Under the pieces are notes generated by a model. The model was not told where the DNA came from. It did not search any database and saw nothing but the letters and a program-made list of their open reading frames with translations. From the NCBI RefSeq assembly GCF_007994985.1, contig NZ_VOQF01000005.1, positions 372,001 through 436,000 of the forward strand: a stretch of 64,000 bases of DNA. The letters run 5' to 3'. How positions within the stretch are numbered: position 1 is the stretch's first letter; each line of letters opens with the position of its first letter. The stretch is from Metabacillus litoralis. GTDB taxonomy: Bacteria; Bacillota; Bacilli; Bacillales; Bacillaceae. This document shows, one piece after another, positions 463 through 64,000 of this stretch. Made by a program: the position numbers and the translations under genes.

Positions 463-1332
463 TTGTCAACAATTCAAATCGGGTTAACTGGCTGGGGTGA
501 TCATGATTCTCTCTACTCAGCTACAACAAATACATCAAAAAAACTACAAGAATACGCTGCACATTTTCCTACTGTTGAAATTGATGCTAGCTTTTATGCG
601 ATTCAGCCAGAACGCAATATCAGAAAATGGCTAAAAGAAACTCCTGAAAATTTTCAATTTATACCAAAAGCATATCAAGGAATGACTGGGCATCTTCATG
701 GAGAGCTTCCTTTTACTACTAAGGAGGAAATGTTCAGTGCATTTATTAAATCTGTAGAGCCTCTAAAAGCTCAGAATAAACTTGCAATGGTTCTATTTCA
801 ATTTCCACCATGGTATGACTGTACAAAGGAAAATGTTGAATATTTGAAATGGTGTCGAGATCAATTAGGAGACTTAGACGTAGCTCTTGAATTTCGTAAC
901 AGATCATGGTTTTCACCTGCCTATTACGAAAAAACATTACAGTTCATGGGATCAGAAAAATGGATACATAGTATTGTTGATGAGCCACAGGCTGGAATGA
1001 GGTCGATACCAACAGTCTTACAACCAACTGATCCTAACAAAACGCTTGTCCGGTTACATGGAAGAAATGTACATGGGTGGAATAAACCAGCTTCAGGTGA
1101 GGATTGGAGAGATGTTAGATATTTGTATCGCTATAATCAGGAGGAGTTAGAGACGTGGAAGGAGAATCTTGAAACTCTGCGAAACCATTCAAAAAATATC
1201 TATATGCTGTTTAATAATAATTCTGGTGGAGATGCTGCAGCAAATGCAAAAATGATGATCAATATTCTTGATATAACATATTCCGGTTTAGCAGAAAAAC
1301 AATTAAGCTTGTTTCCTGATGAGGAGAGATAG
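463..1332 (+). CDS. yunF: DUF72 family protein YunF
   Basis: The protein is about 289 aa and belongs to the DUF72 (YecE-like) family, whose fold is TIM-barrel-like and whose reaction is unknown. The family N-terminus GLTGWGDHDSLY is seen at residues 5-16, with DVALEFRNRSWF and LVRLHGRN further on. I chose TTG at 463 because AGAGG at 449-453 lies 9 bases upstream. An ATG at 454 overlaps that Shine-Dalgarno (SD) and cannot use it. yunE follows after 6 bases, so the two are probably co-transcribed, as are the yun genes of B. subtilis. Function not established. Confidence 0.9.
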   Translation: MSTIQIGLTGWGDHDSLYSATTNTSKKLQEYAAHFPTVEIDASFYAIQPERNIRKWLKETPENFQFIPKAYQGMTGHLHGELPFTTKEEMFSAFIKSVEPLKAQNKLAMVLFQFPPWYDCTKENVEYLKWCRDQLGDLDVALEFRNRSWFSPAYYEKTLQFMGSEKWIHSIVDEPQAGMRSIPTVLQPTDPNKTLVRLHGRNVHGWNKPASGEDWRDVRYLYRYNQEELETWKENLETLRNHSKNIYMLFNNNSGGDAAANAKMMINILDITYSGLAEKQLSLFPDEER

Positions 1333-57681: not shown

Positions 57682-58902
57682 ATGGAAGTGTTTGTTGCCA
57701 GACAACCGATATTAAATAGTAATGAAGACGTTATAGCTTATGAACTTTTATATAGAGGAAGCAATGAAAATGTTTTTCCAAACATTGATGGTGATAGAGC
57801 TACTACAGAGGTAATTATTAATAGTTTTTTAAATATTGGGATGCAGGATTTATCTGAGGGGAAGAAGTGCTTTATTAATTTTACAGGAGCATTATTAAAG
57901 TCCAAGCTTCCTACCTTCTTTAATCCTAGCTCAATTGTTGTTGAAATTCTGGAAAACGTTGAGATAAATGAAGAGTTAGTTTTAGTATGCAAAGAATTAA
58001 AGCAATTGGGTTATACCATTGCTTTAGATGATTTTAAAGTTCAGGAATCTGCTAAACTGTTACCTTCACTTTTGAAATATATTGATATAATAAAAGTTGA
58101 TTTTATGCAATCATCAAGAAATGAGATTTTGTCAATTGTAAATAAATATCGTTCATTAAATATACAATTATTAGCTGAAAAAGTAGAAACTAGAGATGAT
58201 TTCATTTTTGCAAAAAAAATCGGCTACACCTTGTTTCAAGGGTACTTCTTTAGCAAGCCGATCATTATTTCAAGCCATGATGTACCGATGCACTTAAAAA
58301 CGTATTATCATATTTTAGCTGAAATATCAAAAACAGATCCTAATATTGATATAATATCTTCTGATATAGAGCATGATATTTCTTTATCGTATAAGTTGTT
58401 AAAACTTATTAATTCACCAGCGTTTCGCCCGATAAATAAGATCAAGTCGATTAAACAAGCTATAGTATTGTTAGGATTAAACGAGTTAAAAAAATGGATT
58501 TATGTTCTTTCTTTAAAAAATATAAAAAATGTAAAAGACTCAAAAATGGATGAAGTTATCAAAATGTCCTTAGTCCGCGCAAAATTATGTGAGCTACTAG
58601 CTGTAAAGACTGGTAACAGGATGTCAGCACCGTATATGCTAACAGGCCTTTTTTCTTTAATAGATACATTGCTACATAGAGATCTAAATGAAGTATTAAG
58701 TGAATTGCCATTATCAGAAGAAATCCAAGATGCACTTCTTGGCAAAGATAATAATCTTAACAAAGTGTTGTCGTGGGCACTACAAATTGAACAAGCTAAT
58801 TGGGAGTTAGAAGGTATAGAATTATCTAAAGAAGAGATTAATAGATATTATGTTACCGCGATAGATTGGGCTACACATTTAATGGAATTTGATGAGAATT
58901 GA
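57682..58902 (+). CDS. pdeH: c-di-GMP phosphodiesterase PdeH (YuxH), EAL-HDOD
   Basis: The 406-aa protein has an EAL domain (about 1-200) with ELL for EAL (near 21), NFTG (near 65), VEILE (near 87), ALDDF (near 114), IIKVDF (near 136), LLAEKVE (near 164) and FQGYFFSKP (near 180). An HDOD domain follows (about 205-390). All key EAL residues are present, so it should be active. PdeH is the main c-di-GMP phosphodiesterase of B. subtilis and also sits beyond degQ-comQ there. ATG 57682 follows GGGGG. Confidence 0.93.
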   Translation: MEVFVARQPILNSNEDVIAYELLYRGSNENVFPNIDGDRATTEVIINSFLNIGMQDLSEGKKCFINFTGALLKSKLPTFFNPSSIVVEILENVEINEELVLVCKELKQLGYTIALDDFKVQESAKLLPSLLKYIDIIKVDFMQSSRNEILSIVNKYRSLNIQLLAEKVETRDDFIFAKKIGYTLFQGYFFSKPIIISSHDVPMHLKTYYHILAEISKTDPNIDIISSDIEHDISLSYKLLKLINSPAFRPINKIKSIKQAIVLLGLNELKKWIYVLSLKNIKNVKDSKMDEVIKMSLVRAKLCELLAVKTGNRMSAPYMLTGLFSLIDTLLHRDLNEVLSELPLSEEIQDALLGKDNNLNKVLSWALQIEQANWELEGIELSKEEINRYYVTAIDWATHLMEFDEN

Positions 58903-59022
58903 TAACTGTCAATTTGAATGTAAAATAAAAAAGGAATACAGTAAATTTTATAGAATTATTAAAGATAATTAAACTTCCTTGTTCAAACTTCGAGTTGTTA
59001 AACTAAAGGAGGTCTTCACTCT

Positions 59023-59247
59023 ATGGGAGGGCAACCAACTTTTTTTGTATTAGATGATAAAATGGTTGCAGTATTTTCGGTGTTGCAGAATAATTGCGAA
59101 GTGAAAATGGAATGCTTATTTTCTAAAACAGGAATAGAGGATTACACCTTAGAGTATTATGGACCTTTAGAACAGAAATCAGAGTTAATCAAATTAGCAG
59201 TATCAAAAGCACAAAGTATATTTAATGAAAATGTTTTTTCAGTCTAG
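59023..59247 (+). CDS. Small hypothetical protein at the yuzC position
   Basis: The 74-aa protein (MGGQPTFFVLDDKMVAVFSV...) is soluble and mixed alpha/beta in look, with one CEVKMEC Cys pair. It lies between pdeH and degQ, where B. subtilis has yuzC; I cannot confirm homology by eye. AAAGGAGG precedes ATG 59023, so it is a real gene. Confidence 0.75.
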   Translation: MGGQPTFFVLDDKMVAVFSVLQNNCEVKMECLFSKTGIEDYTLEYYGPLEQKSELIKLAVSKAQSIFNENVFSV

Positions 59248-59253
59248 GTGGTT

Positions 59254-59296
59254 GAAGAGAGACTAAAACGAATAGGTTTAGTCTCTCTTCTTTTTA
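59254..59296 (+). terminator. Terminator upstream of the degQ promoter
   Basis: GAAGAGAGACTAAA pairs with TTTAGTCTCTCTTC around a 9-base loop and is followed by TTTTTA. Confidence 0.93.
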
Positions 59297-59441
59297 TTTA
59301 GATTACTTATTTATCGTTAACTCCCCTCAAAAAGACAGGTAGAAAAACGTATCCTTTAAAAGTCATAGTGTTTTCCAAATTCTCACATAAAGGCAATTCT
59401 TTGTACATCGAAAATATATATTTTGGACTATTGCGTTTCTG

Positions 59442-59519
59442 TTGCGGTATCACGCATTGAGTATTACGATTTATTTTCGGTGAAAATTGTCCTGATATAG
59501 CGTAGTATTTAACTATAAT
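59442..59519 (+). promoter_or_regulatory. degQ promoter with ComA box
   Basis: TTGCGGTATCACGCAT (59442-59457) fits the ComA consensus TTGCGG-N4-CCGCAA and closely resembles my recollection of the B. subtilis degQ box. A further half-site, TTGCGT, is at 59431-59436. TATAAT at 59514-59519 is a perfect -10 with no good -35, as expected for an activated promoter. The box centre is about 75 bases upstream of the predicted start point. Confidence 0.85.
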
Positions 59520-59578
59520 CAATTAACATGAAAGTTGGCCCTGCATTCGCGCTTACCAACATTTAAGGAGGGTGAAAA

Positions 59579-59719
59579 GTGGATCAGCAAAAAATTGAAG
59601 AAATGACAAAGCTGCTACTACAAATCGAGCAAGAATTAAAAGAAACGAAGCAATCACTTCTATCTATAAATGAAAGTATTGATAAATATGATAAATATGC
59701 ATTTCTAAATGTATCTTAA
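59579..59719 (+). CDS. degQ: DegQ, stimulator of DegS-DegU signalling
   Basis: The 46-aa protein reads MDQQKIEEMTKLLLQIEQEL then KETKQSLLSINESIDKYDKY then AFLNVS. It has the length and the SxNxSIDxYDKY block of B. subtilis DegQ. DegQ binds DegS and promotes phosphotransfer to DegU, raising degradative enzyme and poly-glutamate production. GTG 59579 follows AAGGAGGGTG. Expression should depend on ComA through the box upstream, so it links quorum sensing to DegU. Confidence 0.95.
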   Translation: MDQQKIEEMTKLLLQIEQELKETKQSLLSINESIDKYDKYAFLNVS

Positions 59720-59721
59720 AG

Positions 59722-59748
59722 AACTTAGCTCCTGCTAAGTTTTTTTTA
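59722..59748 (+). terminator. Terminator of degQ
   Basis: AACTTAGC pairs with GCTAAGTT around TCCT and is followed by TTTTTT. Confidence 0.93.
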
Positions 59749-59941
59749 ATAAGGTTAATAGCTTATGACCTTTTTACGTAGTTTTGGTGTCTAGTGCAAT
59801 CGCTAGACCAAGGGCTTGTGTTTTTCTTAAAATTAACATTGACATATATTGGTGAATTGGGTGAAAATATAATAGATTAGTTGTAAGAATATACTTTTGC
59901 TACTAAACTAATTAGTAATATAGTAATATATAGCAAAAGGG

Positions 59942-60865
59942 GTGGGTGGTATAGAAAATATTGAGTCCAATCGTATTAAAGAAACGATGTTGAATTTAAT
60001 TACTACTCAGCTACAAAATGATGGACTTAAAAGTTTTATATTTTCTTTCCTTACAAATAAAGAAGAAATGAATTTTGCTAACCTTACTATTTTACATCAC
60101 CAAATATTTGATAGGAAAGATCCAGAACTTCTGAATTTAGCAGCAGCTGTTGAACTTTTGGTATTATCATTTGATATTTTTGATGATCTAGAAGATTTAG
60201 ACAATACAGAAGAGCCTTGGATGAAGATTGATCATTCAATAGCCTTGAACGCTGCAACAGTACTGTATACGCTAAGTCAGCAAACAGTATTATCACTTTC
60301 TTCACCATTTAAGCATCAAATCCTTGCATCGCTTCTAAAATACTCCATACAGGCTATGGAAGGACAACATGACGATTTGGAAGATAACATTGCTTCTGAA
60401 GAAGATTGTTTACAAATGATGAAGTTAAAATCAGGATCACTTATTGCTCTAGCATCAGTATGTGGAATGCAATTGGCAGGAGAAAATGACAAATTAGTTG
60501 AAGAGTATGCATACCAAATTGGCATAGCTGCACAAACAGATAATGACTTTAGAGATTTATTTAATCCATTGAAGAATGATATGAAAAATCAAAAAAAATC
60601 TTTAGCAGTTCTTTATTTACAAAGAAATTATAATGAACATGCAAACGATTTGCTCAAATTTTATCAAAGTGGATTAGACATTAAAGAGCAGTTTGGAAGC
60701 ATAGAAAACTATAAGCAAAAGCTTTTAGATTCAGGAGTCATGCAATATCTAAATGTAGTAAAGCAAATTGCTATAAACAGAGCTTCAAGAATGATAGACA
60801 ATTTAAATATAAATAGTGAACATAAAGAGTTTGTTAAATCAATTTTAATCAATAAAAAAACATAA
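59942..60865 (+). CDS. comQ: ComQ, prenyltransferase that matures ComX
   Basis: The 307-aa protein is an isoprenyl diphosphate synthase relative that prenylates and helps process ComX. Asp-rich motifs are DDLED (81-85) and DNDFRD (200-205), with GQHDD at 141-145. The start is uncertain: GTG 59942 is embedded in its own AAAGGGG SD, while ATG 59987 aligns with the B. subtilis ComQ N-terminus (41 residues from Met to TILH...F in both) but has only a weak SD. TATAAT at 59868-59873 may be the -10; no good -35 is spaced from it. comX follows after 19 bases. Confidence 0.93.
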   Translation: MGGIENIESNRIKETMLNLITTQLQNDGLKSFIFSFLTNKEEMNFANLTILHHQIFDRKDPELLNLAAAVELLVLSFDIFDDLEDLDNTEEPWMKIDHSIALNAATVLYTLSQQTVLSLSSPFKHQILASLLKYSIQAMEGQHDDLEDNIASEEDCLQMMKLKSGSLIALASVCGMQLAGENDKLVEEYAYQIGIAAQTDNDFRDLFNPLKNDMKNQKKSLAVLYLQRNYNEHANDLLKFYQSGLDIKEQFGSIENYKQKLLDSGVMQYLNVVKQIAINRASRMIDNLNINSEHKEFVKSILINKKT

Positions 60866-60884
60866 TAATAGGGAGAGATCATTC

Positions 60885-61043
60885 ATGCAGGAAATCGTAA
60901 ACTTTTTAATTGAAAATCCAGAAGTATTAGAGAAAGTAGTTAATGGACAAGCTAGCTTACTTGGTGTTGATATTGAGGATGTATTAGGGTTAGTTGAAGG
61001 TATTGTTGGCTCTGGGACTTTGAAGAATCTTTTCTGGGCGTAA
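60885..61043 (+). CDS. comX: ComX pheromone precursor
   Basis: The 52-aa precursor reads MQEIVNFLIENPEVLEKVVN and ends VGSGTLKNLFWA. N-terminus and length fit ComX (B. subtilis ComX starts MQDLINYFLNYPEALKK). Its only Trp is W51, the penultimate residue, within the C-terminal few residues where ComX is prenylated by ComQ. The mature pheromone should be a short C-terminal peptide, perhaps about 6-10 residues, carrying a geranyl or farnesyl group on W51. No Cys is present. SD GGGAGAG precedes ATG 60885. The peptide sequence defines this strain's pherotype. Confidence 0.93.
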   Translation: MQEIVNFLIENPEVLEKVVNGQASLLGVDIEDVLGLVEGIVGSGTLKNLFWA

Positions 61044-61065
61044 TTATTCTTGAAAGGTGTTAGTA

Positions 61066-63366
61066 ATGCGAAGTAACTTCAATAAAACTTACCAATTATT
61101 TGTAGTATTAAGTATTATACTCTCTATATACATGACATTTTTAAATATTAATTACCCTTATGTCGGTGCAAGTGTAGAAATAAGCGAAGAAGATAAAATA
61201 ATAATAACTTATATAGAGCCGAAATCTTGGGCTGAAAAAGTGGGAATAAAAATTGGTGATGTTCTTATTGAGGTTAATGGCTCAGATCCACTAAAACATA
61301 AACCTTTATTGAATAAACATGTATTAGAACAGGTTGAATCTTTCACTCTTGAAAGAGGTGGACTAGAGAAAGAATATACTTTTTCTAGTTCACCTAATTT
61401 TAATGCACAAAGTTTATTAATTATTATTATACCTTTTACCGTTTTATTTTTATGTTTGTTTTGTAGTTTTTATATTTATAAATCTAATAAAAGTATTAAT
61501 TTAAAATCTGCAAATTTATTAAATGTTTTTTTACTAATTATCTCAATGGCATATATTAGTGCTACTGGTTCTTCAAAAGGTGATGAAATTAGCAGATACG
61601 TTAATTTATGTTTGTTCCTTTTGGTGCCTGTTAGTTATATGCATTTTTTGTACCAATATTTTATTGAATTAGGTAAAAAATTATTTAACTTCCATTTTGT
61701 TAAATTTGGTTATGTATTAGTAGGACTTAATGTTATTGCAGAAATAGCTCAATATTATTTTCTATTTAGTTTTCAATATAATAGAACTATAAATTTAATT
61801 TCCTTCTTTATCCTACTCGTGCTAACTTTTTTACTGAAAATATTCGGATTGAAAAAGATAAAGTACTCTGAACAATCGTATATAGTAAAGATTTTGATTG
61901 TCACAAATATTCTTTCCTTTTCACCTTTTTTATTATTTTATGTAATACCATTTCTGATATTTAAGAAGTATGTTTTTCCACCTACATTTTTAGCGGTCTT
62001 TCTGTTGTTGATTCCCTTTTCATTGGTATATCAATTTTTAGCCACTAAAATTTATGATATTGAGTTCTTACTTGGAAGAATTAGATATTATTCTTTATTG
62101 GCTATTATTCCAAGTTTAATAATAGTTGGAATAATGCTAAATTTAAAAGAAAGTAATCCGAATTTTTACCAAATAAAACTAGCTATTATAATTTATATAG
62201 TGCTCATAGCAGTATTCTACATCAAAGAAATCTTCGACTATCGCTTCAGACTTAAGCGGTTTTCTGAGAAGTATAATTACCAGGATAGTATATTTAAATA
62301 TACACAAAGTATCCGCAAGGCAAGTACTTTAGAACAGGTTGTTTCTGAGCTTAAACAGGTAATTACTGATGTACTTATTGTTAGTAAGGCTTACTTTATA
62401 GAAGTGGATAAGGAAAAAAATATCTCAGCTGTTGATCCTAATGCAAAGAATTCAGATTATGGTCCATATGTGAAAGAAATTAAGAAGGTATCGGTTGAAA
62501 TCGGGAAAATTATCGAAGTTGATAAGGGATTTATTATAAATATTGGAGAAACAGATGATAAAAGCTATGTTCTGCTTTGTTTATCAATATTAAATACTCC
62601 TATTTTAACTAGAGATGAAATTTCCTGGCTTAAAACATTGTCTTTTTATACAAATGTGTCCTTGGAAAATTTCCTTAAAATTGATGAACTTATGCAGCAT
62701 TTGCAAAAGGTTGAAACTGAAGGTCAAAACCCTGGATGGTTAACGAAGCTTTTATTTTCTATTGAAGAGAAGCAGCGTTCTAATTTAGCTAAAGATCTTC
62801 ATGATTCAGTTTTGCAGGATTTAGTTTCGTTAAAGAGACAGTGTGAAATGGCTTTATCAGAGGTAGAAGTGGATTCTGATAAATTGAAAAATCAGTTGCA
62901 GGAAATGAATAGCAATATGACTAAAATCATCAAAACAACAAGAGAAACTTGTCAGGAATTACGACCACAGTTGCTTTATGATTTAGGCTTAGTGAAAGCT
63001 CTTAATAAGCTAGTGATGCAGTATCAAGAAACAGTTGATTTTGACATTCGATTAAATACAGGTAATTTCACAATGAATTTGGATATTGATACGCAGCTGA
63101 ATATTTATCGTATTATCCAGGAGCTTTTAACAAATGCTCAAAAGCATTCAAAGGCATCTAGTGTGTTAATTATTTTAGTATGTATCAAAGATAAAATTGT
63201 CCTGCATTATGAAGATAATGGGATTGGCTTTAAATATAATAATATGAATGACCAATCTGAAAGTATGGGATTGTCAGGTATTAGTGAAAGAGTGAAGGCT
63301 CTAAAGGGAACAATTACGATTGAAACCTCAGAAGGAAGAGGCTTAAAGATAGATGTTGAAATATAG
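61066..63366 (+). CDS. comP: ComP, quorum-sensing histidine kinase
   Basis: The 766-aa kinase has one N-terminal helix (about 10-28), an outside PDZ-like domain (about 35-115; EPKSWAEKVGIKIGDVLIEV), then about eight or nine further helices to residue 395, a GAF-like segment, a HisKA_3 domain with LAKDLHDSVLQDLVSL (His near 575), and an ATPase domain with ELLTNAQKHSKAS, DNGIGFKY and GLSGISERVKAL. It senses modified ComX and phosphorylates ComA. ATG 61066 lies 6 bases after AAAGGTG; the longer in-frame GTG 61057 is part of that SD. Confidence 0.93.
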   Translation: MRSNFNKTYQLFVVLSIILSIYMTFLNINYPYVGASVEISEEDKIIITYIEPKSWAEKVGIKIGDVLIEVNGSDPLKHKPLLNKHVLEQVESFTLERGGLEKEYTFSSSPNFNAQSLLIIIIPFTVLFLCLFCSFYIYKSNKSINLKSANLLNVFLLIISMAYISATGSSKGDEISRYVNLCLFLLVPVSYMHFLYQYFIELGKKLFNFHFVKFGYVLVGLNVIAEIAQYYFLFSFQYNRTINLISFFILLVLTFLLKIFGLKKIKYSEQSYIVKILIVTNILSFSPFLLFYVIPFLIFKKYVFPPTFLAVFLLLIPFSLVYQFLATKIYDIEFLLGRIRYYSLLAIIPSLIIVGIMLNLKESNPNFYQIKLAIIIYIVLIAVFYIKEIFDYRFRLKRFSEKYNYQDSIFKYTQSIRKASTLEQVVSELKQVITDVLIVSKAYFIEVDKEKNISAVDPNAKNSDYGPYVKEIKKVSVEIGKIIEVDKGFIINIGETDDKSYVLLCLSILNTPILTRDEISWLKTLSFYTNVSLENFLKIDELMQHLQKVETEGQNPGWLTKLLFSIEEKQRSNLAKDLHDSVLQDLVSLKRQCEMALSEVEVDSDKLKNQLQEMNSNMTKIIKTTRETCQELRPQLLYDLGLVKALNKLVMQYQETVDFDIRLNTGNFTMNLDIDTQLNIYRIIQELLTNAQKHSKASSVLIILVCIKDKIVLHYEDNGIGFKYNNMNDQSESMGLSGISERVKALKGTITIETSEGRGLKIDVEI

Positions 63367-63451
63367 ACTTGGCATATGCCAGGTCTCTTTTTTAAGATAT
63401 TCAAATAATGGTTTAACATTGAAAGAAAGTAAAACAAGTAGTAAACAATAT

Positions 63452-63606
63452 ATAAGGCTGTTTTCGCAAACTTTGTTGCTTATAAATACCCGAAGAAATC
63501 AGCATTGTATCAAGTCTAGTTGCATCTTTTCTTCGCCAAAATATACTGATTCTCCTGCATATTTTGGTTAAATAGCAACATTCTTTCAGAAAAGAGCCGT
63601 ATATAA
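63452..63606 (-). repeat. Interspersed repeat family C, copy 3 (between comP and comA)
   Basis: Read on the minus strand it starts GGCTCTTTTCTGAAAG and contains CAAAATATGCAGGAGAATCA, GAAGAAAAGATGCAACTAGA and GGGTATTTATAAGCAACAAA, very close to copy 1. It lies inside the 262-base comP-comA gap and ends about 22 bases before the comA start. It gives frames on both strands, which I take as by-products. Confidence 0.87.
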
Positions 63607-63628
63607 AGAATGAACAAAGGGTGGAAAA

Positions 63629-64000
63629 ATGATACATATTTTAGTAGTAGATGATCATCCAGCAGTAAGAGAAGGCACAAAGGCAATTTTAGAAGCAGAA
63701 CCTAGTGTTCAAGTAGAATGCTTGAATCCGCCTTATACAGTTGAAGAAATGAAAAAATTTGATTTTGCTCCCTTTGATGTTATCTTAATGGATTTGAATT
63801 TAGGTGAGATTAACGGAATGGAGTTATCTTCAACAATCTTAAGTCTTCATCCGACTAGTAAAGTGATTCTCTATACAGGTTATGATGTTGAAGATTATTT
63901 TGAGGAAGCACTACAATTAGGTATTTTGGGAGCAGTAAGTAAGACAGAGTCAAAGGAAAAGCTATTAGATTATATTAGACATGTTATTAATGGAGAAATT
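63629..64000 (+). CDS. comA: ComA response regulator, cut by the window edge
   Basis: The first 124 codons are present, covering the receiver domain. Phosphoacceptor D55 lies in VILMDLNLGEINGMEL, the acidic pocket in LVVDDHP (8-9), T83 in YTGYD and K105 in VSKTES. The C-terminal LuxR-type DNA-binding domain is beyond the window. It starts MIHILVVDDHPAVREGTKAI with GGGTGG upstream of ATG 63629. Phosphorylated ComA should bind the box upstream of degQ. An unusually long gap with a repeat separates it from comP. Confidence 0.93.
   Translation, partial: MIHILVVDDHPAVREGTKAILEAEPSVQVECLNPPYTVEEMKKFDFAPFDVILMDLNLGEINGMELSSTILSLHPTSKVILYTGYDVEDYFEEALQLGILGAVSKTESKEKLLDYIRHVINGEI

Follow-up and report, generated by a model that had tools for sequence, protein, structure and literature searches.

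Which parts of a ComQXPA quorum-sensing locus change when its pherotype changes? The question is raised by a degQ-comQ-comX-comP-comA locus of Metabacillus litoralis, found at positions 59442-64000 of a 64,000-nucleotide stretch of DNA that we call the window. Modifier, signal and receptor are viewed as a triad that co-evolves when pherotypes diversify in Bacillus, and it is a puzzle how a new pherotype could come about without passing through a non-functional stage. We consider it probable (about 0.78) that this is a working comQXPA locus in which the ComX tail and the membrane sensor of ComP form a specificity unit, swapped between Metabacillus lineages as a single piece, and in which the pherotype is not set by ComQ, a shared modifier of broad tolerance.

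A first-pass annotation, made from the letters alone, had reported a ComA box, degQ, comQ, comX, comP and the receiver half of comA as a comQXPA locus. Pfam searches and open reading frames (ORFs) place every part where it was reported (Table 1), and the identity of the locus is borne out by gene order, domains and motifs. The five genes are adjacent on one strand with all reading frames intact. ComQ retains a first aspartate-rich motif (FARM, DDLED at residues 81-85) and a pseudo-second aspartate-rich motif (pseudo-SARM, NDFRD at residues 201-205), and on the same contig ComA (L002) is complete at 213 residues, with Response_reg (3.2e-22) and LuxR-type GerE helix-turn-helix (1.2e-15) domains. 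ComX comprises a leader (residues 1-46) and a tail (47-52), ends in GTLKNLFWA, and has Trp51 (codon 61035-61037) in the penultimate position. ComP carries a PDZ domain in its first outer loop (residues 29-116) and ten hydrophobic segments, called by Kyte-Doolittle hydropathy, up to residue 390; the kinase follows. Gene order, ComQ motifs, ComX, ComP and ComA all agree with the ComQXPA class, so that by its sequence the region is a bona fide comQXPA locus of Metabacillus, and the family is a known one. If the Bacillus mechanism carries over, ComQ would geranylate or farnesylate Trp51 in the ComX precursor, and the tail, once processed, would bind the outer face of ComP; ComP would phosphorylate ComA, and phosphorylated ComA would act on targets such as degQ.

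The locus is a mosaic when it is compared with that of M. crassostreae (L050). Nucleotide identity is 94-100% across degQ, comQ and the comX leader, falls to 54-78% from the last comX codons to approximately comP codon 390, and is again 91-100% in the remainder of comP. Nearby, one further strong drop is seen, in the comP-comA spacer, which cannot be aligned and in the window carries a dispersed repeat. At the protein level, identity is 97.4% for ComQ, 100% for ComX residues 1-46, 50% for ComX residues 47-52 and 97.2% for ComA. Within ComP (numbered here from an upstream GTG, +3 relative to the ATG numbering), it is 45.6% for residues 1-150, 64.3% for 151-290, 78.0% for 291-390, 99.4% for 395-560 and 97.6% for the kinase. 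Synonymous divergence (dS) is 0.10-0.21 in the flanks, as compared with 3.9 and 2.4 in the first two of these ComP blocks and saturation in the third. The near-saturated dS inside the block therefore implies another ancestry.

Trees of 22 rows each separate the same parts. The sensor tree joins the window sequence with M. bambusae (93/90), which has the nearest sensor (80% identical), and the approximately unbiased (AU) test rejects a grouping with M. crassostreae (p 5e-44). In the ComQ and kinase trees, the partner of the window sequence is M. crassostreae (99/98 and 99/97, respectively), and the AU test rejects M. bambusae in that place (p 6e-42 and 1.3e-7). Thus, the ComX tail and the ComP membrane sensor, from the outer PDZ loop to transmembrane helix (TM) 10, have an ancestry unlike that of ComQ, the ComX leader, the kinase half and ComA. 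An explanation without exchange, in which the block diverged in place under strong diversifying selection on signal and receptor, is very improbable. It needs a block dS equal to that of the flanks, contrary to the values above, and amino-acid selection alone does not yield the pattern found, in which the sensor also has a different nearest relative. The ComP segments that best track the tail (the outer PDZ loop and TM5-EL3-TM6, see below) do lie where ligand contact is plausible, which speaks for this explanation.

Table 1. Features of the locus and its upstream context, in window coordinates.
Feature	Position	Strand	Evidence
EAL-HDOD protein gene, upstream context	57682..58902	+	Pfam HDOD 9.5e-21, EAL 7.7e-17
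Candidate ComA-type box upstream of degQ, TTGCGGTATCACGCAT	59442..59457	+	2 mismatches to TTGCGGN4CCGCAA, which we take to be the ComA consensus palindrome
degQ, 46 aa, GTG start	59579..59719	+	Pfam DegQ E 2e-15
comQ, predicted Trp prenyltransferase, 307 aa, GTG start	59942..60865	+	Pfam polyprenyl_synt 4.3e-17
comX, pheromone precursor, 52 aa	60885..61043	+	Pfam ComX (PF05952) 3.1e-9, 37 bits (cut-off 25)
Probable exchanged specificity block, last comX codons through ComP membrane sensor	61020..62236 (approximate, 60-120 nt resolution)	+	Identity drop, dS, tree tests
comP, sensor kinase, 766 aa from ATG	61066..63366	+	HisKA_3 2.6e-13, HATPase_c 7e-11, PDZ 4.4e-6
Copy of a dispersed repeat of ~160 bp, comP-comA spacer	63450..63609	+	44 genome-wide matches at E<=0.01, a count that includes this copy and fragments
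comA, first 124 codons (receiver)	63629..64000	+	Response_reg 8.5e-23

The pattern recurs within the genus. Loci were compared in Metabacillus (g1), Bacillus (g2, assigned from the ComX set, for example from the RO-E-2 dodecapeptide LSKKCKGIFWEQ) and sister genera (g3-5). Of the 14 sister-genus genomes that gave a ComX match, 10 make up the g3-5 set; the other four (G065, G070, G071 and G077) contributed ComX alone. The g1 and g3-5 statistics do not include an Aeribacillus locus (L069). A match of 24 residues in a Methylococcaceae metagenome-assembled genome (L070) was also left out. Among 136 Metabacillus pairs, 9 have ComA at least 92% identical, and in 4 of these the sensor is less than 75% identical while ComQ is 82-97% identical. 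In three pairs (at 90-nt resolution), the identity drop starts in the last ~18 nt of comX and stops near comP codon 390, which coincides with the end of the last predicted TM helix; L055/L057 and L062/L063 have the same borders as the window and M. crassostreae. The pairs L051/L170 and L058/L060 share the left border and have a right border further downstream. L060/L173 is the converse case: the sensors are 96% alike and the tails are LLSTYWL and LFSTYWL, yet ComQ is only 81% identical.

Bacillus differs in this respect. In 36 of 41 loci (comX, comA or a complete comP ORF was missing from the other five), sensors are less than 75% identical in 105 of the 182 pairs with ComA at least 92% identical, and median ComQ identity is 53%. 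These 105 pairs come from 35 loci, and ComQ is at least 80% identical in five of the pairs, one at 97%. In Bacillus, ComQ and the leader thus normally move with the block, whereas the exchange at the window locus leaves both unchanged. This agrees with published data, cited throughout from excerpts of the papers: comQ is 65-70% identical (nucleotide) between B. subtilis pherotype clusters and diverges by more than 30% among strains with clonal gyrA (PMC4408185), and diversity within the B. subtilis clade is 0.46 for ComQ versus 0.13 for ComA (PMC4008528).

Partial Mantel tests of the ComX tail against the ComP sensor, given kinase and ComA, yield correlations of 0.20 (p 0.012) in g1, 0.42 (p 0.011) in g3-5 and 0.81 (p 0.001) in Bacillus. 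For the tail against ComQ, the values are -0.19 (p 0.997), 0.01 (p 0.46) and 0.73 (p 0.001), respectively. A sliding partial Mantel scan along ComP in g1 peaks at residues 61-120, in the outer PDZ loop, and at 201-260, which span TM5, extracellular loop 3 (EL3) and TM6. Subregions 30-118 and 201-260 give 0.36 and 0.35 in g1 (p 0.0015 and 0.0005, both post hoc because the subregions were picked after the scan); the remaining sensor residues give 0.13 and ComQ gives -0.20. In g3-5, the remainder of the sensor matches the chosen subregions in strength of correlation, at 0.58. There is thus some support, weak and post hoc, for the outer PDZ loop as one of the two ComP segments that best track the tail. 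It fits the suggestion that ComX is bound by this loop, made together with an AlphaFold model of B. amyloliquefaciens ComP with ten TM helices and a PDZ fold in the first outer loop (PMC9620489). By Pfam and hydropathy, the window ComP has the same plan.

The first-pass annotation had also held that ComX, ComQ and ComP co-vary and that the locus probably forms a communication group of its own, as yet undescribed. A co-varying triad, with the locus as a separate, closed pherotype, is unlikely. Co-variation is the Bacillus rule, as seen in the comQ identities between clusters (PMC4408185) and in the tail-ComQ correlation of 0.73, and the exact tail KNLFWA occurs in no other ComX compared, which also favours a closed pherotype. 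However, ComQ differs together with tail and sensor in B. subtilis-type pherotypes, whereas here it is 97.4% identical, and the leader is unchanged, across the switch between the window and M. crassostreae, despite differing tails and ComP sensors. The negative tail-ComQ correlation in g1 also speaks against co-variation. Moreover, the M. bambusae tail, KNLFWV, differs from KNLFWA in one of the last six residues and accompanies the nearest sensor, so that cross-talk between the two species is a fair prediction from the sequences. A communication group confined to this locus is thus doubtful, even though its exact tail is unique. That such a group is undescribed fits the absence of any described Metabacillus pherotype in the open-licence papers searched.

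The tail was also correctly reported to differ from ADPITRQWGD, which the annotation gave as the B. subtilis tail (strain 168). Its penultimate Trp is no distinguishing mark, and the idea that Trp at position -2 is unique to the source strain was rejected: all 17 comX-bearing home loci of Metabacillus have it, as do all 10 sister-genus loci, two of which end in WW. These counts leave out three home loci without comX and one genome (G004) with no ComQ or ComX match. In Bacillus, ComX was obtained from 37 of 41 loci, and the last Trp is at -3 in 16, -4 in 8, -5 in 6, -20 in 4, and -1, -2 and -7 in one each. The modified Trp is third or fourth from the end in six Bacillus strains and 20th in the natto precursor, in contrast to second in the window; RO-E-2 ComQ accepts Trp second to fourth from the end in vitro (PMC5331326). 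PF05952 is present in 18 of 21 genus genomes (E<=0.01) and 72 of 80 family genomes (E<=0.001), and in an alignment of 19 ComX sequences (A1) the leader is far more constant than the tail. One sensor clade of g1 has an aliphatic C-terminal residue in all 9 of its loci, versus 2 of the 8 other g1 loci (Fisher p 0.0023, uncorrected for kinship). KNLFWA, judged by sequence, is a new allele among the records compared, and by itself an ordinary one.

Several observations weigh against an exchanged tail-sensor unit served by a constant ComQ. The g1 evidence consists of 17 loci with few close pairs, and its tail-sensor correlation is weak, dropping to 0.13 (p 0.066) when ComQ is added as a control. 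In g3-5, a different tail measure and control give a tail-ComQ correlation of 0.31 (p 0.05), and ComQ is 77-79% identical in two of the three swapped-class pairs. The sliding scans are not confined to the sensor: kinase window 601-640 passes p<0.02 in g1, and windows 461-520 and 681-720 do so in g1 plus g3-5. The branch joining the window sequence and M. bambusae is not starred in the sensor tree. Finally, the Bacillus pair L139/L134 has ComQ at 97%, sensors at 54% and differing tails, so that exchange spares ComQ there too. Because of this pair, ComQ-sparing exchange was rejected as exclusive to Metabacillus.

ComX-comP pairs without an adjacent comQ are found elsewhere in Metabacillus genomes. 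Such satellites form three families, spread over 6 of 21 genomes, and all have their Trp at -2, as the resident ComX does. In G003, G006 and G016, the home loci (L127, L128 and L129) keep comQ and comP, separated by a gap of 44-56 bp, and have lost comX and comA. Their satellite consists of comX-comP and a convergent comA, has the tail LSKFWM (20.4 bits, below the Pfam cut-off of 25), and has no comQ in the 13-14 kb covered. The ratio of nonsynonymous to synonymous substitution (dN/dS) for comQ among these three genomes is 0.27-0.29, versus 0.15-0.20 in comX-bearing pairs; by this measure, comQ at comX-less home loci is constrained and somewhat relaxed. The second family, comX-comP-comA with the tail LQSYFWR, is found in G010 and G014 with no comQ in the 15 kb covered. 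The third is comX-comP alone, with the tail LMKYWG, in G019 (L121:6149-8643 and L178:10200-11375). Its ComX has no Pfam match, and was recognized by 40% identity to the LSKFWM ComX (E 9e-6) and by its position before comP. This pair is near a MrpR-like recombinase (MrpR C-terminal domain 3e-28) and ~13 kb from AimR (4e-83), and for this reason it is placed in a putative SPbeta-like prophage; G019 is the genome of an uncultured Metabacillus, for which a binning error is possible.

A ComQ search found no ComQ other than the home copy in G003, G006, G010 and G019. The second match in G016 sits among putative menaquinone-synthesis genes, and G014 also has a further locus that includes comQ. Such additional loci with a comQ of their own comprise two families in three genomes, with Trp at -3 (G005, G014) or -4 (G020). 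The G020 locus (L124:6058-10271) is comQ-comP-comA, and the comX-like ORF there (tail DTWKPS) lies on the opposite strand, an arrangement also described for a hypothetical comX in a 2014 census (PMC4008528). Immediately upstream of a satellite comX, a 91-residue ORF (L118:7018-7293, minus strand) looks like a ComX leader by eye, has no tail Trp, and had no match in a Pfam search. Satellite numbers are small, and further examples may have been missed.

Mobile elements were also searched. A viral origin of the home cassette was rejected, as viral_contigs holds no ComX relative. The prophage-borne ComP has no relative in viral_contigs, nor in the phage collection at E 1e-20. Eight plasmid records have a ComP relative. 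All three that were opened carry comQ or a polyprenyl-synthetase gene and comX alongside, which rules them out as comQ-less satellites. We give an even chance to the idea that Metabacillus ComQ is a genome-wide shared prenyltransferase and that comX-comP forms a portable module for private channels, whether or not comA goes with it: exchanged at the home locus, present at comQ-less satellites, and carried on an SPbeta-like prophage that would borrow the host ComQ.

It might be asked whether the locus is instead decaying, in that comX-comP has lost its quorum function and the repeat has already broken the comP-comA spacer. The repeat itself, which has no Rfam match up to E 1, and the loss of comX and comA at three other Metabacillus home loci are consistent with this. 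Decay is nonetheless highly unlikely given the five intact frames, the low dN/dS relative to M. crassostreae (~0.11 for comQ, 0.011/0.100; ~0.07 for the kinase part of ComP, 0.012/0.166), and the retained box before degQ. By sequence, the box is not above chance, with 4 matches in the window at 3 or fewer mismatches versus 7.9 expected. An attempt to define a ComA regulon from the pattern was dropped, since it occurs at 23 places in the genome versus 30 for a reversed control pattern and is thus uninformative genome-wide. Its position is conserved: in 32 loci chosen out of 81, a two-mismatch box starts 128-150 bp before degQ in all except the Aeribacillus locus L069, where the box has three mismatches.

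An exchanged tail-sensor block with a tolerant ComQ remains our preferred explanation, and it concerns a locus that otherwise resembles known systems. Like the Bacillus ComQXPA systems of strains 168, RO-E-2, RO-H-1, natto and others, it has a ComQ with FARM and NDxxx pseudo-SARM, a ComX of the same leader family, and a box before degQ. Trp prenylation by ComQ requires an NDxxx or GDxxx pseudo-SARM, and the DDLED and NDFRD motifs of the window ComQ fit this requirement (PMC5331326). Matches of ComQ to solved structures are isoprenyl diphosphate synthases, plus weak matches (E 0.17-0.9) labelled only as prenyltransferase. B. velezensis CP021891 has the same layout: an upstream gene of ~407 codons (annotated as uncharacterized), degQ-comQ-comX-comP-comA, a thioesterase-type hydrolase gene and Na+/H+ antiporter genes. 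The "non-B. subtilis-like" loci of the 2014 census represent the same system outside Bacillus sensu stricto, including Lysinibacillus genomes with two loci. The census sought the four-gene arrangement, and the text consulted names Lysinibacillus, Geobacillus, Anoxybacillus and others, not Metabacillus; in the same text, we found no discussion of ComQ-sparing exchange or of comQ-less comX-comP pairs (PMC4008528). Among the matches listed for open-licence papers, likewise consulted in part, we found no report of a pherotype block uncoupled from ComQ or of comX-comP satellites. PalQ-PalX-PalP of Paenibacillus alvei likewise has a prenyltransferase resembling trans-isoprenyl diphosphate synthases that acts on a Trp in the C-terminal region and is clustered with a histidine kinase. 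PalX, by contrast, combines an NHLP leader with a Trp at its very end, and alanines placed after that Trp abolish the reaction (PMC10853753); the window ComX (PF05952) keeps one residue after its Trp.

The surroundings of the locus add the following. A conserved 74-residue ORF (window 59023-59247) lies between the EAL-HDOD gene and degQ, is also kept in comX-less genomes, and has no match in a Pfam search. The degQ product matches NCBIfam DegQ at 2.8e-19 (69 bits, below the 80-bit cut-off). No RNA element was found in 58900-64000 by Rfam search up to E 1. Downstream of comA are a thioesterase gene and then opposite-strand genes read as a putative Mrp-type antiporter set. The source genome (G000; 4.88 Mb, 75 contigs) holds one ComX match, one ComQ and one full-length ComP; four further ComP matches cover the kinase part only. 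It also has two ComK-family genes (L184 and L185; G000:C74 and G000:C14).

Part of the interest of this locus is that ComQ appears uncoupled from the pherotype block, which goes beyond a new allele of a known family. This uncoupling points to a single enzyme being able to serve several private signals, and the constant ComQ makes a direct test possible with one ComQ and several ComX tails. If the satellites are as interpreted here, a prophage with comX-comP would give the phage a means of exploiting a signal that the host modifies. With a constant modifier and a ~1.2-kb block that carries both signal tail and sensor, one recombination event would switch both, which may be a simple route to a new pherotype.

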